From NCBI GenBank assembly GCA_030425385.1, contig JAUIAH010000034.1, positions 1-64,000 on the forward strand: DNA of 64,000 nucleotides, read 5' to 3'. This DNA comes from Verrucomicrobiia bacterium. GTDB lineage: Bacteria > Verrucomicrobiota > Verrucomicrobiia > Verrucomicrobiales > DEV007. The notes beneath the pieces were generated by a model. That model searched no databases and was not told the origin of the DNA. It worked only from the letters and a program-made list of their open reading frames with translations. How positions within the stretch are numbered: position 1 is the stretch's first letter; each line of letters opens with the position of its first letter. The translations under genes and the position numbers were made by a program. Positions 1 to 64,000 of the stretch are shown here, piece after piece.

Positions 1-482
1 TCTCGCTGATCACCCCGGACATTGCTGCCCGAGGCGCTCCCTGCTGAAGCAGGACGCCATGCCAACGAGATCTCCCCAGGTAAGGGCACGAACCTCCACC
101 ACACGACCGCCTCATTTACCTCCGGAGTAGAACCGAACGGTTTCGCTGTGTTGTGCCAGCTCACCTGGCTCCGTCGGCCTCGTATGAGGTTCTTGTTCAT
201 CGGCCCATGGCTGTCGCCTAGTCTGCCTTCCCACGGTCGGTCGCCCTTCCGCAGGTTGACTTCGGCTAGTGCTTCTGATCACTACTTCGTTGAACGGATA
301 TTTCATGATGCATTCGGTTTCACACAGGGGACTTGAACCCCTTCTGGTTCGTGCCCATGCTGGGCACACACAAGGCGGCGCTGACCAACCCGCTACCGCT
401 CTGGAGTCGAAGTCGGGAGGTAAAGAGAAACCTAAACCTGAATCGGAGGTCCGCCCCCAGTAGCGGGTGGCAGGCCTCGGAC
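1..482. other. Non-coding or decayed stretch, no gene recognised
   Basis: No convincing coding sequence is visible. Open frames exist on both strands and overlap each other, as expected of decayed or structured non-coding DNA. A look-alike of a tRNA T-arm lies at 327-341 on the minus strand (four-pair GGGG/CCCC stem with a TTCAAGT loop), but there is no matching acceptor stem or anticodon arm. The stretch may be the remnant of a mobile element or of an earlier cassette, given the integron-like core site that follows; this is inference only. Confidence 0.3.
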
Positions 483-3289: not shown

Positions 3290-3672
3290 ACCAATCGGCG
3301 AGGTTCGTCATCGGCTTTGGAGAGGTAGTAATAGCGCGTCATTTCCTTTTTTCCATTTGGATGTTGGGCTGCTACTATCCATTTCGAATCTTCACCAACG
3401 GCAATCACCTCGTGCATCGCTCGACCGTGACCGCCGCCATCCTCTAAAGTGATTGATAGCCATCGTTCATTATCGATCCATCCTATGGCATACTCGCCGC
3501 TCTTCCAATGGGTGCCTGAGTCACCGCTTGTCAGAAACAAGCTCACACCTGCGACGGCTACGATCAGAAGAAGTGACTGTTTCAGTCGGCACTTGGTTTT
3601 TCGGCGAGCTGATGCCTGGGTGCGATCTTTGAATCTGACAACTGCTATACTGCTCGCGATGGATGATTTCAC
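3286..3672 (-). CDS. Hypothetical membrane-anchored or exported protein
   Basis: 128 residues, GTG start at 3672, overlapping the stop of the upstream FG-GAP gene as GTGA, so it is probably translationally coupled to it. A basic N-terminus (residues 1-30) is followed by one hydrophobic helix (about 31-48, QSLLLIVAVAGVSLFL) and a soluble domain containing GEYAIGWIDNERWLSITLEDGGG. Family not recognised. The coupling implies a role linked to the large lipoprotein upstream. Confidence 0.55.
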   Translation of the reverse strand: MKSSIASSIAVVRFKDRTQASARRKTKCRLKQSLLLIVAVAGVSLFLTSGDSGTHWKSGEYAIGWIDNERWLSITLEDGGGHGRAMHEVIAVGEDSKWIVAAQHPNGKKEMTRYYYLSKADDEPRRLV

Positions 3673-6257
3673 TTGAGAGAGGCGTCCCGAAAGACGTTCT
3701 TCTCTACAAAGAGATCGCGGCAGGATTGGAGTTGATCTAACAGCTGGCCTTTAGGAGCGAGTGCCAAAGCTTGGTCGACCGTCTCGGTGGCTTTCTCAAA
3801 GGCGCCGGTAGCTGCTTGAGTGATTGATAGAGTGAGTAGGTATTCGGGATTCTGGTGTTCTGTCTTGCGGCAGGCCACAGTGGCGAGACGATTGGCCAGG
3901 TCTTCATCGCGCATCGATTTCTGGGGATGAGCCGAGCGTATCCAGGCGAAGCCATTGCTCGCCCCGGGATGATTGGCGGCGTATTTGAGGGCGCGGGCGT
4001 AGGTGCGCACGGCTTCCGAGGCGCGGCCGAGACGTTGCAGGGCACGGCCGCGATCACAATGATAGTCGGCATTCTCGGGCTCTAAGGCTAGGAGCTGATC
4101 GAGTAATGATAGGGCGGCTTCTGCGTTTCCTTGAGACCAATGGTGCTGCCGCAGTTTCTGTAAGGTGGGTAGATGCTTGGGTGCTTGCGCGAGGATGGTT
4201 TCCCACTGAGATACCGCGGCCTCCGTGCGTCCTAAGGTTTCCAAATAGTCAGTGAAGGCTAGGCGAAGAGTGAGATCGCTGGGGCGTTGGTCGAGGGCTT
4301 GGCGATAGATTTCAATGGCTGCGTCGGCCTGGCCGCGTTCGCGGAGAAGGGTGGCCATGGCAATGTCGCGCTGAGCGGCCATTTCCTCCGACAAGAGATG
4401 GGGGCGCCATTGGCGATCCATGGTGTTGACCTGTTGGAGATAGGCCGCGGCCTGATCGACAGCTCCGCGGTCCATGAGGAGGGCGCAGAGGCGCTGAGGG
4501 TCGGGCACGGGGACGGGGGACCACCAGCGGCCGGGAAAGGGGACGCCAGCTTGTCGGCGGGTGGCCCCGTCGGCAATGAGCAGGGGCAAATCACCCCTTA
4601 CCAAGTCTGGATCTACTGGGCCTTTGTAGAGGGCTTTGACGTACCCTTGGGCATCGAGGAGGAACGCGCTCGGGACGGGGAGCGTTTCTTTGTAGTCGAG
4701 GGAGGCTTGTTGAAAGAGATCGATGAGGTGAAGGGATTCCAAACTGAGAGTGAGCGTGCGGAATGGGCCTGACAGATTGGCGAGCATGGTGTCTGCCTCT
4801 GCGTTGCTGGGCGTCACTTCAGCTAGGATGATTTCCAGGTCATTCTCCGGAAACGTCTCCGCCAACCAGGTGCGCAAATCGTCTACGGAAGGCCCCCAAT
4901 CAGCCGCCCAGAGTTTGAGTAGGGTCGGCTTGCCGGTCAACGCGAGCGTTTCGTGCACGGGGTGGGGGAATGGCAATCCTTGGGGAAGAATGATGCGCAC
5001 GGTGGATGCGTGAGGGGCGTCTTCCACCTTGGGATCTCTCAAGTCGGCGGGTGGGCTGGGTTTCCAAGGCACCGCGTCTGCTCGTCCTTGGCGTAATTGA
5101 TAGAAGCTGTTGAGAGCGAGGTCTGCGAACGTTTGTTCCTCGCCTCCTGGCCAGACGACTGTTGCGGTTGCGGCTTCGTCCGGTGGCAAGCCTTGGAAGG
5201 TGAGCCAGGAAGAACTCTGTGAGCGGACGACGTGCCCTGCGTGGCGCCTTTGCGTGTGCCCATGGATGGTGACGGTGGCCCCAATGGCTTCACGCGATGT
5301 GGTGCGGCCGTTGCCTAACAAGTGCACGCTAACAAAGTTGGTGGTGGGGGCGTTATTGAGCAGTAGTTGCACCCGAGGTGCGCCTCGTCTGGCGATCCAG
5401 GTATCAGCGTCACCATCGAAATCCCAGTCCATGGTGGCGAGGGCGCGCGCATCGTCGGGGAGCGGGAACTCGGCGGCTGTCTCCAAGGGCTGTGGCTCTA
5501 ACAGCGTTGCCGAATCGGAAGCGGACACTGGGCCTTCATCGACAAAGGACCATTCGCGGTCTTGGCGGATCCATCGACGATTCTCACCGATGGCCCAGAG
5601 ATCTAGATCACCGTCTCCATCGTGATCGCTGGCCTGGAGTGTGGTGGTTGGCTCGGTGAGGGATAATGCTTGTCTCACGGTGAAATGGCCGCGGCCCTCG
5701 TTCTCCATGAGGAGAAGCTGATCTGCGGCGACCACGGCGAGATCGGTCACCCCATTATCATCAAAGTCTAGGAAGAGCGCGCAGGGTGAGGCGTCGAGCC
5801 AGTCTGCGCCTGAGGCTTCGGACATGTCGGCGAAGCTGCCGTTGGGTTCACGGAGAAAGAGCCGGTTCGGAAGACCGCCTGGCATGCAGAGATAGAGATC
5901 ATCTAGCAGATCTCCATCCACATCGCCCAGGGCCAGTCCATGGGCTGCCTCCGAATCAATCCCGTGAGCCTTTGCTAACCGCTCTCGCCAGAAATCGTGG
6001 CCGCGGAGCAGGTGGGCCGTGAAGGCGTGATTCTTGCCAAGCACTGCACCTGTCCGGTCCGCATGGCCAGGGGTGATGGTAAGTGCTTTGTCCTCAATGC
6101 GTTTTGCAGGCTTCTCTGCGCTTGCGTCCATCAACGCGGTGATGGGACGCATCACGCTCATCGGAGCCGTGGGAGGGGATTCCGTCGTCGGCACAGTGTC
6201 GTCCCCTCGGTGACAAGCCGAGATAGCAATCGCGACGATCAGCCAAAGGCGCTGCAT
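3669..6257 (-). CDS. FG-GAP/ASPIC lipoprotein with thioredoxin-like and TPR domains
   Basis: 862 residues. The signal has lipobox AISAC near residue 15. An FG-GAP/VCBS beta-propeller region follows, with Ca-binding motifs such as GDVDGDLLDDLYL, FDDNGVTDLAV and DHDGDGDLDLWA (about 115-230) and DWDFDGDADTW. An ASPIC/UnbV domain (about 295-385) ends in ATVVWPGGEEQTF. A segment resembling a thioredoxin/redoxin fold (about 410-560, PTLLKLWAADWGPSVDDLRTWL) lacks the usual C-x-x-C. The C-terminal third carries TPR repeats. Proteins of this CRTAC1-like type are abundant in Planctomycetes and Verrucomicrobia; their exact function is unknown, probably extracytoplasmic binding. The domain order is seen; the role is inference. 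A relative lies at 58303-60882. Confidence 0.85.
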   Translation of the reverse strand: MQRLWLIVAIAISACHRGDDTVPTTESPPTAPMSVMRPITALMDASAEKPAKRIEDKALTITPGHADRTGAVLGKNHAFTAHLLRGHDFWRERLAKAHGIDSEAAHGLALGDVDGDLLDDLYLCMPGGLPNRLFLREPNGSFADMSEASGADWLDASPCALFLDFDDNGVTDLAVVAADQLLLMENEGRGHFTVRQALSLTEPTTTLQASDHDGDGDLDLWAIGENRRWIRQDREWSFVDEGPVSASDSATLLEPQPLETAAEFPLPDDARALATMDWDFDGDADTWIARRGAPRVQLLLNNAPTTNFVSVHLLGNGRTTSREAIGATVTIHGHTQRRHAGHVVRSQSSSWLTFQGLPPDEAATATVVWPGGEEQTFADLALNSFYQLRQGRADAVPWKPSPPADLRDPKVEDAPHASTVRIILPQGLPFPHPVHETLALTGKPTLLKLWAADWGPSVDDLRTWLAETFPENDLEIILAEVTPSNAEADTMLANLSGPFRTLTLSLESLHLIDLFQQASLDYKETLPVPSAFLLDAQGYVKALYKGPVDPDLVRGDLPLLIADGATRRQAGVPFPGRWWSPVPVPDPQRLCALLMDRGAVDQAAAYLQQVNTMDRQWRPHLLSEEMAAQRDIAMATLLRERGQADAAIEIYRQALDQRPSDLTLRLAFTDYLETLGRTEAAVSQWETILAQAPKHLPTLQKLRQHHWSQGNAEAALSLLDQLLALEPENADYHCDRGRALQRLGRASEAVRTYARALKYAANHPGASNGFAWIRSAHPQKSMRDEDLANRLATVACRKTEHQNPEYLLTLSITQAATGAFEKATETVDQALALAPKGQLLDQLQSCRDLFVEKNVFRDASLK

Positions 6258-58302: not shown

Positions 58303-60882
58303 CTACTCTCCGTATGGAGAAAGCATCAGAGCGCTTGCATCCGACGGACCTTCTTGAATCCGCACCAGTTGCCCGGCGTCGAGGTTCTCAAACGCTTGCG
58401 TGATCCCGCTCGGCCAGCGAATGGATAGGCGATCCACCTTCGTTGCGTCTCCCAATCCTAGCAGAATGGTCTTGCTCTGTTGCGCCGAGAATCCCTCGCC
58501 ACAGCGGGTCTCCTGCACGAGTTGCTGGTCGCCCACTTCGGCCACGATGCGCACGCCGTAGCCATCGCGATTGGATTGTTGTCCAACGAATCGAAGTGCC
58601 AGGAAATGGCGCGTTTCCCCGGCATGTTCCAATAATTGGCCTAACTGATTTCGATACCAGACGAGCTTTGGCGCGTTGGCATTGATGCTCGCGAGATCCG
58701 GCCAGCCATCGTGGTCATAGTCCCAACGGACCACGCTGCGACCGTCACCGATGTGTGCCATGCCAGAGAGACCGGAAAGATCTTCAAACTGATCTCCTTC
58801 GAGATTCAGAAAGAAACGGTTGATCTCGTGTCCACTAAGTGAGTGCTCGCCACTGGAGGAAGTGTCTAACAGGTTGACCGCCTGCTTCGTCGATGCCTCA
58901 AAGGCCGGTGACTTTTCTAGGTCTTCTCCTTTAGCAGGATCCTGGCGCACGACCGCGCGCCAAAGCACACTTCACAAGTCTTGATCAGACGCCGTCACAG
59001 AGGGCGCGCTGTAGAAACCGCTGGCGGAATAAATGTCAGGATAGCGATCATTGTCGGCATCAACGAAGAGCCCACCAAAGGCCCAGCCTACCTTGGCCAC
59101 GTGCTTATCGTGCTCGCCGATGCCCGCAACTTGTACAAGCTGATCGCCCTGATTCTCGAAGAGCAGACTGCCTTGAGCTGAGAAAGGCACGCGCGCATCG
59201 AGGCCATCGATCTGGCGGGTGATGCGCTTCCCAGCCTTGCTGTACATGTTAGACACGTAGAGGTCGAGCCGCCCATCGCGATTGTAGTCGTCCCACGAGG
59301 CTCCCATGCCGAAGCCCATCATATCAGAGCCGGCGATCTCCTTGGAAACATCTCGGAACACGGTCTGCCCGCTCGCGTCTGGTCCCTCGTTGCGGAAGAA
59401 GGCATCAGGCGCAAAGTCGTTGGCGACGTAGAGATCCACATCGCCATCGTTGTCCTGATCTGACCAGACACTTTGATACGTGTTTCGCCATTCGGCGAGG
59501 GTTCCCGCTGCGCGTGGGATGACGAATCGGCCTTGGCGGTTTTCCAGGAGCAAATTGGGCGGTCCAAAGAGATCGAGATAACGGTGCGACTTTGCCGCGC
59601 GTTCCTCAAGCTGTTTGGCCATTGGGGCGGGGAAGAATTCCTTCGCCCACATGGAAACCGGCGTTTCCTGTGTGGTTGGGCCATAGAGCCCGAGATAAAC
59701 ATCGAGGAAACCGTCGTTGTTGTAGTCGGCGGCAGAGATGGTGGAGACGAGATAGGGAAGGGGAACAGTCACTTTGCTAGACCTTTCTTCGAAACGTCCA
59801 TCCACATTCTCCAAATAGAGACTGCGTTTCAGGCTTCGGCCGATGAAGACATCTGGGTCGCCATCGTTGTCGAAATCAGCGAAGAGCGCTGCATTGCAAT
59901 AACCGTCCAAATCCAGACCCACGGCCGGCGCGATGTCCTCGAATTTCCCATCCAAGGCGCGTCGACGAAATAGCTGATTCTTTCCCCACCGGCCCATCAC
60001 ATAGAGCTCATCCCAGCCGTCTTCATCGATGTCCACCACGCTCAGCGCGGGGTGCTGATGGGAAGAATCCAAGTCCTGGTAGCGCGCATAGACCGGATCA
60101 GTCGTGGTGAATTTCCCTTTGGTAAAGAGATCGATGAGATTCAACTCATGATAAGACGTGAGGGCGCGCTCGAGGTCTTGAGGACTGGCAAGAGTTTCGT
60201 CGAGGCATTCGCGAAAGAAGGTGTCTGGAGAGATGAACGTCGTGATCGGCATCTGACGCCACTCACAGATTCGCCAAATCTTGTCATTGCTTTGCTGCCA
60301 ATCGACTTCTTGATTGCCGTGAATCTCCAGCTGCCAGCCGTTGGTGAGCGTGGCGAGCCCCTCGAAGCCGACCGTCGCGGTCATGAGATCCGCACGCGTT
60401 TCGGAAGGGTGGGCCTCGATAAAGTAGAACTTGGATCGCTCGAATGACTCCACCTCTTTGAGCAAGGGCTTCCACAAGAGATCGCTTGCGATCGCTCCCA
60501 CCGTAAACGTGGCCGAGGGGAGATGGACACGCGAACGCACGAAAGGGAGGCTCTTCATGGCCGGCCCAGCTTCTTCACGATCAAGGTCGTGAAAGCGAAA
60601 CTTGGGGGTGAAATGGGAGGCGCTTTGGTCGCTCGGTAAGCTGCGTTCCTTTTGAAGCGCCTTGCTGATGGCTTTGAGTGTTGGCGTGTATGCTAGCAGC
60701 CATTCCTCAGAGGAGACGAGCTGCTGCAGGCGTTCTTCCTCCGTCAACGGGGCAGGTTCTGCCTGAGCGGGCCCGGCCTTCGTTTCTTGGGTAGGCTCTT
60801 TGGAGCACTGACAAAGTCCCGAAATGGACAGCGCCGCGAACAGCGAGAGCCAAGCCCGTTTCTGTTCGCGGCGCGTGATCAT
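58303..60882 (-). CDS. CRTAC1-like FG-GAP/ASPIC lipoprotein with one in-frame TGA (possible selenocysteine)
   Basis: About 860 codons if the TGA at 58972-58974 is read through. The ATG at 60882 gives a lipoprotein-like N-terminus ([15 protein letters not shown]); an upstream in-frame ATG at 60960 overlaps the preceding gene. FG-GAP/VCBS repeats occupy about residues 280-640 ([96 protein letters not shown]). After SDQDL comes TGA, then [10 protein letters not shown] in the same frame, one further FG-GAP repeat ([13 protein letters not shown]) and a complete ASPIC/UnbV domain (about 735-850) ending [26 protein letters not shown] single stop inside otherwise intact coding means a recent nonsense mutation or recoding. 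Confidence 0.75.
58941..58974 (-). promoter_or_regulatory. Bacterial SECIS-like hairpin just after the in-frame TGA
   Basis: On the coding strand, 7 nt after the TGA, UUUGGCGC pairs with GCGCCAGG (58957-58964 with 58941-58948, the outer two pairs being G-U). Two further pairs may close a GGUC apical loop, whose first G is 18 nt after the TGA. Bacterial SECIS elements have a small apical loop with a G in its first two positions, 16-37 nt after the TGA. The fit is real, but GC-rich coding DNA forms such hairpins often. Confidence 0.4.
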
Positions 60883-60898: not shown

Positions 60899-63800
60899 CT
60901 ACTGTTGTATGCGGAGGCGATAGTATCCAGCCGCTGCGGCGGTTCGGTTGGCGTCCGCATCCATGTAGTTACTGGTGGCGCCAGTTGCCGTGATTGTCGT
61001 CACTTCCTGCCAATCATCATTGAGCGTTGGTGAGAACTCTAACACATAAGTAGTGCCATCAACGCTGGACCAGCCGATATCGATTCCGGCATCGCCACGG
61101 GTGGGCGGCTCCAATTGGAAGAATGAGGTGGCATCGTTAGGATCCGTTCCCGCCAATTGCTCAACGGAGTCTGATTGGCCATCGCCATCACTATCCACGT
61201 TTGGATCCACGGGAATCGTGTCGCCGGCCAAGGCTTGGCCAGGATTCCCCTGGAGAAACTGGACGTCTTCTTCCGCGAGCACCTTGTCGTAGATCTGAAG
61301 GTCATCGATCCTACCCTGGAAGCCGAAACCGCCACTCAAGGCACCGATTTGCAACGGAGCGTTGCCGAGATCGTCGAAACCGCTGATGCCTTCGATGCGA
61401 TCCATCTCTTCGCCATTCAGATAGATGATCACCGCGCGGTCGTCCGACGAGTTGTCGAAAGCGACGGCAAGATGGTGTGCTTCTCCTGGGGCTGCTTCAG
61501 CCGAAAGCACCGCCTCACCACCTGCGAAAACGAACACACTGCCATCTGCGTATGCGAGAGCGAAGGGATCGCCTTGGGAATCAGCACTCTGATTCTTAGA
61601 GAGCAATGTAAGGACATTGGGCGACGATTCTGCCTGGAACCAGAGAGAGATGGACGTATCCACAAACGGATCGAAAGTGTCTACCACTTCTCCATAAGCA
61701 GCACCGGTCCCGTCGGATCCAAGGCTGACCGACTGACCAGCAGCGAGGGGTTCTTGGCCCAAGAGAAAGGCTCCATCACCGGTGGTCTGAAACTCGGCGT
61801 GACGACCGCGGCCCGATATGTCCGAGGCGGTGTTGCCTTCGGTTTCGTCGAAGGGATAGTGGGCCACGAGTCCGCTGCCACTATCAATGATCGCGGAAAG
61901 GTCCACGCGAACGACCTCTTCGCCGGAGTCGTTGCTGGCAAGCTCAAGAAAGGCCGAGAATCCACCCGCGCGGCCTTGTGGATCGAAGGTCACCGTGATG
62001 CTCCCTTCCTCGCGTGGAGCCAGGGTCGCTGGTGGCTCGCTCACCGCGTAGTGAGCACTGTCCAGCCCCGTGATGGTGGCGCTTGTGATGTTTAAAGCAT
62101 TCTCGCTGCCTGTATTGGTGATCTCCAGCGTGCGGGTTTGCGGACTCACACTGCTCAATTCGCCAAAGACATTGCGCGTTTGAATGAGCAAATTGGGATC
62201 GTCCGTGAGGATCATGCGCTGGTCCAGGCTGATGACATCAAATTGGATCCAGCTTGAGGCGGTTTGCCCCGTGCGTTCGATCTCAATCACATTGGCTCCC
62301 ACCACCGCGTCGACCTCAGTGGGAAGGAAGCTGGCATCAATGTTCACATCTTCTTCAATGTCCGTTAGGCTGTAGATGTCATGACCATTCACGCGGATCA
62401 CGACGTCATGAATGGATTCGTCGCCTCCGGAGCCGATCTGACCCAGTTCCACGTGCAACCGCATTTGAATGGTCTCTTGCACGAGGTCATCTGTAAGATT
62501 GAAGTGGATCCGGTTGAAAGGGTCGCCGGAAGTGATGGCGCGTTCAAAGTTGGTCCAATCCTCATCGACGGCGACCACTCCAATCGGATCTGGGTAGGTT
62601 CCTGCGAGATAGTAGTCGTCATCGAGGGCTTCCGCACTGCCAGGACCGGGCTGGTTGCCGCCTGCTTCCTGACTGAATTCCGCTTGGCTGTCATCAGCTT
62701 CGCCAATCTGCCAGAGCTGCTCGTAGGGCACAGGAAGCGAGTTAGGATCAATCGGGCTCGTCCCGTAGAGGACTTCGTCATTATCACTTTCGCCATCACC
62801 ATCCGTGTCCACTTGCAAGGGATCACTCCCTGCGGTGATCTCACGTCCATCAATGAGGCCATCGTCATCCGTGTCTTGATCGAGCACCAGAGTGTTGTGC
62901 TTGGTCACCTCGTCGCCGTCTAACAAACCGTCGCCATCAGTATCAGCCACACGTGGCTTTGAGCCATACTCTTTCACCTCGGCTCCATCTGCCAAGCCAT
63001 CGTTGTCAGTATCAGGATTCGCAGGTTCGGTCTTATTCTCGAACTCCTCCAAATTGGTGAGGCCATCGTCGTCTTGGTCCAGCGCGGCATCGGCCGGATC
63101 GGCCGGATCGAGGAAGTCGTAGTTCGCTTCGTAGCTGTTGGGGAGACGATCACGGTCCGTATCATCCGTGCGGTATTCCATCGCCAGATAGTCAAATTGG
63201 ATCCAGCCGGTTCCATCCAGGCGCTCGATGGTGAGGGTGTTAGGCCCTGGTGCCGCTCCAGCATCGGATCCACTCACCGTTGCGCGGACCAAGGTATCCC
63301 CGGTGATGCCGTTCTGTGAGAAGAATTCGAAGTCATTCAGGCGCATGACGATGTCGTGGGTGCTGCCGTCTGCGGGTCCCAGGCAGCACAATTGCACCTC
63401 TACCCGGTACTCGGCGCCTTCACTCGCGGAAATGTCATCCAAGTTGAAGTGGATCCGGTTGGTAGGATCGCCAGCCGTCAAGGCGCGGTCGTAGTTGGCC
63501 AAAGCTTCATCTGCAGCCACCGTTCCGATCTCGCCCGGGTAAGTGCCAGCGAAGTAATAGTCGTCATCCTGCTCCATGGCGCTTCCCGGCGCGGGGCTAG
63601 CGCCGGATTCCTGACTGAATTCAGATTGATTCCCATTCTGCAAGCCAAGCAGCCAGAGAGGTGTGTAGAGCACGGGGATGTCCGTGGGATCGTTAGGATC
63701 GGTTCCCAATTCCACTTCCGTCGCATCATCAACGCCATCCGTATCCGAATCGGCTACGGTGGGATCCGTTTGATGAACGTTCACTTCGTCCCCATCGCGG

Positions 63801-64000
63801 AGGGAATCGCCATCGGTGTCCACCACGTTGGGATCACTCTCGTGGACGTTGATCTCAGCGGCATCATCGAGACTATCACCATCACTATCAGCAAGATCGG
63901 GCCGCGTCTGATGCACGCGCACCTCATCGGCGTCGTTGAGGGTGTCGCCATCGGTATCCGCTTCGCTAGGATTCGACGCCACTTGATATTCCTCAAGATT
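60899..64000 (-). CDS. Giant secreted protein: type 3 repeats, carbohydrate-binding, choice-of-anchor D, LamG (N-terminus outside window)
   Basis: At least 1,033 residues; the frame is open to the window edge (it continues upstream as [19 protein letters not shown]), so the 5' end is missing. Two blocks of thrombospondin type 3 repeats ([24 protein letters not shown]; later [36 protein letters not shown]) alternate with two similar carbohydrate-binding-like modules ([27 protein letters not shown] and [27 protein letters not shown]). A choice-of-anchor D domain ([15 protein letters not shown]), a LamG domain (LVAHYPFDE to [14 protein letters not shown]) and the shared C-terminal module ([13 protein letters not shown], terminal YYRLRIQQ) follow. 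Closely related to 13600-16566. Confidence 0.85.

Follow-up and report, generated by a model that had tools for sequence, protein, structure and literature searches.

The window analysed here, a 64,000-nt stretch of a contig from a Verrucomicrobiia bacterium, carries a minus-strand gene whose frame is broken once between its ATG and its TAG, by a TGA (Table 1). The original prediction had described this TGA as the sole break in the frame but had left the strand unstated; read on the minus strand, the frame is as described. Another ATG of this frame stands upstream at 60960, where it overlaps the preceding gene; translation is unlikely to begin there. Past the TGA the frame continues for 221 codons, in agreement with the more than 220 originally proposed, and these include a complete ASPIC/UnbV domain. 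Coding sequence is conserved on both sides of the UGA, which we interpret below as a selenocysteine (Sec) codon.

Table 1. Features of the UGA-containing gene, its surroundings and related loci of the same genome (window positions unless a contig is given).
Feature	Position	Strand	Details
Candidate selenoprotein gene	58303..60882	-	859 residues including Sec; ATG 60882, stop TAG 58303-58305
In-frame UGA, putatively read as Sec	58972..58974	-	Residue 637 counted from ATG 60882
SECIS-like hairpin	58941..58964	-	10-bp stem, +8 to +31 after UGA
GGUC apical loop	58954-58951	-	+18 to +21 after UGA
Signal peptide region	60805..60882	-	From sequence; possible but atypical lipoprotein signal
NTF2/SnoaL-like N-terminal domain	60217..60759	-	AlphaFold2 and VIA
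FG-GAP beta-propeller, CRTAC1-like	58618..60225	-	Pfam FG-GAP_3, 112 bits
ASPIC/UnbV domain (PF07593)	58363..58560	-	Pfam 55.6 bits, cut-off 23.4
Cys794 in RCGEG	58501..58503	-	Conserved in 25/33 family-A homologues
Upstream gene	60902..64000, on to contig position 64690	-	Directly upstream of the UGA-containing gene; secreted protein
BlaI-like and BlaR1/M56-like genes	C46:64767-66271	-	Past the window
Second ASPIC/UnbV gene	3669-6257	-	Shortened propeller, TPR tail
Group II intron match	85-250	-	Rfam RF02001, 102 bits
selD (L128)	C23:120876-121799	-	UGA-containing selenoprotein gene, canonical motif TCG-U-AAK

The encoded protein combines an N-terminal NTF2/SnoaL-like domain with an FG-GAP propeller and a C-terminal ASPIC/UnbV domain, the latter two both scoring above their Pfam cut-offs. 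Its AlphaFold2 model is confident (pLDDT 89.5), and the propeller and ASPIC part matched murine CRTAC1 (9etn_A) over 458 residues with a VIA Z of 41.3 and an rmsd of 2.3, placing the protein in the CRTAC1 fold. The N-terminal domain, modelled alone, reached a pLDDT of 94.8 and resembled NTF2-like/ketosteroid isomerase folds with VIA Z up to 12.7. The original description of a CRTAC1-like lipoprotein held for its first half, by both Pfam and VIA; the lipoprotein half is uncertain, as the N-terminus resembles a signal peptide but its SGLCQC is atypical compared with the lipobox [LVI][ASTVI][GAS]C, and the Cys is kept in 9 of 33 homologues. In the model, residue 637 opens a helix (637-646), and this short helix is predicted to be an insertion after a propeller strand. 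The Cys of the RCGEG motif is a possible redox partner for a Sec at this position.

In the neighbouring gene directly upstream, an unnamed module (GSQAEFSQE...DDDYYxAGTY...NRIHFNL) is encoded three times, alongside Asp-rich repeats and a LamG-like region. The nearest homologues of the UGA-containing gene likewise have a relative of this neighbour directly upstream; such relatives lie 6-11 nt upstream in L200, L207 and L208, and in several other loci are divergent, about 63-95 nt away. Further upstream, on the same strand, are BlaI-like and BlaR1/M56-like genes, named by sequence appearance, which are possible regulators of the gene group. The window also contains a group II intron match (Table 1).

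We used the read-through protein as a query in 57 related genomes and recovered more than 100 homologues, each with exactly one in-frame TGA. The 83 homologous genes extracted from related genomes place the UGA at the same codon, within DL-U-[SMG]xxWR, and the consensus around it reads D-L-U-S-x-x-W-R-x-V-V. A search of 240 genomes of the order for the UGA motif gave 213 occurrences, spread over 41 of them, compared with one for a reversed-pattern control. In named contigs, about 92-94 sites of the window type have UGA at the same codon; among the matches listed, these belong to Verrucomicrobiota, Planctomycetota, Acidobacteriota or unnamed bacteria. The viral contigs scanned gave no match. 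A profile search of 288 genomes of the phylum, scoring no more than five candidates per genome, returned mostly matches from the source genome itself; this limit, and a draw weighted towards complete genomes of other lineages, account for the outcome. What had been proposed as a single selenoprotein gene is one of nine sites in its own genome and a member of a family of hundreds, with about 8-14 copies in several genomes. The main alternative in the original prediction, a recent nonsense mutation making the UGA a true stop followed by a decaying remnant, would fit a frame with one stop and a truncated product that keeps most of the propeller, but it is excluded to a very small residual probability by the recurrence of UGA at the same codon in more than 100 genes over three phyla, by conservation of the protein downstream, and by the association of the UGA with selA and with a covarying hairpin, both described below.

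Alignment of homologues at the UGA site also identified a sister clade of ASPIC proteins, represented in the same genome by L056, in which a Cys occupies the column aligned with Sec, in the motif DYC[ST]xxWCHD. Direct Cys orthologues of DLUSxxWR were not found by motif search of the 240 genomes of the order, so that the Sec/Cys exchange is read from a distant sister clade with altered flanks. A Cys-codon version of the motif, of slightly different strictness, gave one match in these genomes; it lies in an unrelated sigma-factor-like gene and was rejected as a Cys form of the family. The Sec segment is missing from CRTAC1 proteins of cultured bacteria and of an archaeon, which are more distant. 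In a 49-protein tree a single change accounts for the Sec proteins, but support for this is weak (70/52); they form two well-supported subfamilies, A (the window type) and B.

Immediately downstream of the UGA, the hairpin that had been predicted to begin 7 nt past the TGA, and to place the first G of a GGUC loop at +18, was recovered with a stem of 10 bp. Considered alone, it has a fold z-score of -1.1, and of all TGA triplets in the window 7.5% precede a stem of at least 7 bp with an in-range loop starting with G (0.5% for a GGU loop); by itself it is modest evidence for Sec. Across the family, sequence comparison makes it decisive. In family B, positions +12..+17 form standard pairs with +23..+28 in 96% of cells (55 distinct sequences), with 18 double-change cells against a shuffled mean of 3.2 (0/500 shuffles), and pairing falls to 18-67% when the stem is slid out of register. 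The family A stem pairs +12..+17 with +22..+27, and GGU at +18..+20 is kept in both subfamilies. A GGU-loop hairpin of at least 6 bp follows the UGA in 72% of family members, compared with 0.9% of TGAs in the window and 0/10 Cys paralogues. The loop G lies at the apical start, within the range of the bacterial SECIS model, and a GGU(C) loop at +18 resembles the SECIS of E. coli fdhF; an Rfam search of the UGA region gave no SECIS match. Codon choice is likewise constrained: GTC serves as the Val codon beneath the loop in 144 of 154 sequences (36% background). Outside the hairpin, the Leu codon preceding the UGA is TTG in 137/156 family sequences (17% background) and the Ser codon following it is AGY in 150/150 (34% background), a context constraint in its own right.

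The source genome (8.0 Mb in 74 contigs, 95.5% complete) encodes all four components of the Sec machinery: selC, a tRNA-Sec with anticodon UCA (65 bits), selB (283 bits), selA (491 bits) and selD (361 bits). Its selD contains a canonical UGA of its own; Sec decoding in this organism thus appears not to hinge on the propeller gene. As tRNA-Sec matches, found in 59 of 288 genomes of the phylum, include borderline ones near 50 bits, selA was chosen for the analysis of co-occurrence. It was found in 18 of the 19 relatives that have the UGA family and in 7 of the 38 that do not (Fisher p=2.4e-8, without correction for the kinship of the genomes). Of 18 named MAGs with the family, 15 have selA and three lack it. 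One related genome (G009; 90% complete, 6% contamination) has four UGA family genes and no selA was found in it; it is probably an incomplete or mixed MAG.

Taken together, the comparative evidence, comprising the UGA shared by homologues, the conserved covarying hairpin, the four sel genes and the Cys of the sister subfamily, supports the selenocysteine insertion originally proposed, and we consider it very probable that the UGA of the window gene is read as Sec to give a secreted selenoprotein. The strongly fixed UUG-UGA-A context could instead mark a site of ordinary readthrough, or of UGA decoding as another amino acid such as Trp. This seems highly improbable: TGA is the terminal stop in 9 of 22 complete family genes, and hence a normal stop rather than a reassigned sense codon; the genome has tRNA-Sec, selA, selB and selD; the loop fits the bacterial SECIS model; and the sister-clade residue is Cys, not Trp.

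A thioredoxin-like CxxC domain is present at the C-terminus of 118 of the 121 Sec members with a long C-terminus (59/62 in family B, 8/8 in family A and 51/51 from named contigs), the remaining 3/62 family-B members being without CxxC, and in 0/10 Cys-type members. Several tails score above the Pfam cut-off for AhpC-TSA/Redoxin; others are sub-threshold or have no Pfam match. The window gene, one of the short members, does not encode this domain. Elsewhere in the window, the second ASPIC/UnbV gene has no Sec segment and has a thioredoxin-like region without CxxC (LKLWAADWGPSVDD); it looks like a relative of the Sec family that has diverged, with loss of both redox residues.

In the mechanism we propose, SelB and tRNA-Sec, guided by the hairpin, would decode the UGA as Sec, and the protein would be exported, so that Sec would act outside the cytoplasm. 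The propeller would bind substrate and the selenolate would be the catalytic nucleophile, for example in the reduction of a peroxide, disulfide or oxidised thiol. The CxxC domain on the same chain would recycle Sec in full-length members; in short ones, such as the window gene, the conserved Cys of RCGEG and/or a separate thioredoxin might do so. Given Sec insertion, a role as a redox enzyme is likely. CRTAC1-like FG-GAP propellers are nonetheless often adhesive or ligand-binding, the partner gene upstream encodes a secreted protein rich in repeats, and the window protein lacks a thioredoxin domain of its own. These points would suit a selenoprotein with a regulatory or sensory role, or a surface protein that binds metal or selenium. 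We regard such a non-enzymatic role as possible but rather unlikely, given that the CxxC tail goes with the Sec form and is absent from the Cys forms, and that Sec opens a helix, two features typical of redox chemistry. Returning to the redox-enzyme reading, we lean towards a broader proposal: extracytoplasmic redox enzymes forming a Sec-only class, in which the catalytic Sec sits on a CRTAC1-type propeller and a thioredoxin-like domain of the same polypeptide recycles it. The class would number about 8-14 paralogues in each of several uncultured Verrucomicrobiota genomes, would extend to Planctomycetota and Acidobacteriota, and may dominate the selenoproteome there.

The original prediction knew of no established selenoprotein with this architecture, and none emerged from the literature searched. 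An inventory of May 2026 lists 119 prokaryotic selenoprotein families, none of them FG-GAP, ASPIC/UnbV or CRTAC1 (PMC13188914, Table 1), and the families of Haft and Tolstoy 2025 appear in that table; the deep-Sep paper likewise contains no such family (PMC12013277). In the literature searched, no paper joins selenoprotein with ASPIC and UnbV, and co-mentions of selenoprotein and FG-GAP are unrelated. NCBIfam has no selenoprotein model for the family, giving sub-threshold XAC2610 matches only. This large family of secreted propeller selenoproteins is thus apparently undescribed in the literature searched. Gene finders end these genes at the UGA, and methods that pair Sec with Cys, an approach whose limitation the deep-Sep authors state (PMC12013277), may miss the family because direct Cys counterparts are rare. 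It would bring to the prokaryotic selenoproteome an architecture and a fold for Sec that are not listed there. With nine copies here and up to 14 in relatives, the family by itself could be as large as the entire selenoproteome of many bacteria, or larger. It also suggests that selenium-dependent chemistry outside the cytoplasm is expanded in MAGs of Verrucomicrobiota, Planctomycetota and Acidobacteriota.

Compared with known systems, the window protein shares its propeller and C-terminal ASPIC/UnbV domain with the CRTAC1/ASPIC-UnbV family (PF07593 and FG-GAP_3; murine CRTAC1 9etn), to which it adds the NTF2-like N-terminal domain and Sec; CRTAC1 proteins, including those of cultured bacteria, do not have the DLUSxxWR segment. 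The Cys-type ASPIC paralogues, whose Cys aligns with the Sec column, differ in forming a separate clade, in having neither SECIS hairpin nor thioredoxin tail, and in carrying a second Cys five residues on. With TlpA/AhpC-TSA thioredoxin-like proteins (PF00578, PF08534) the full-length relatives share the C-terminal CxxC domain. Known thioredoxin-like selenoproteins have Sec in place of a Cys of CxxC, whereas here the CxxC of relatives is intact and Sec sits outside any CxxC or UxxC of a thioredoxin fold, in the separate propeller domain. The in-frame UGA, the GGU-loop hairpin just downstream and the accompanying selA, selB, selC and selD are common to this family and to SelB/SECIS-dependent bacterial selenoproteins such as FdhF, SelD and the Sec-peroxiredoxins; relative to the 119 inventoried families, the propeller family is set apart by its FG-GAP/ASPIC architecture, by the nearly exclusive use of Sec at the site and by its expansion, in several genomes, to about 8-14 copies.
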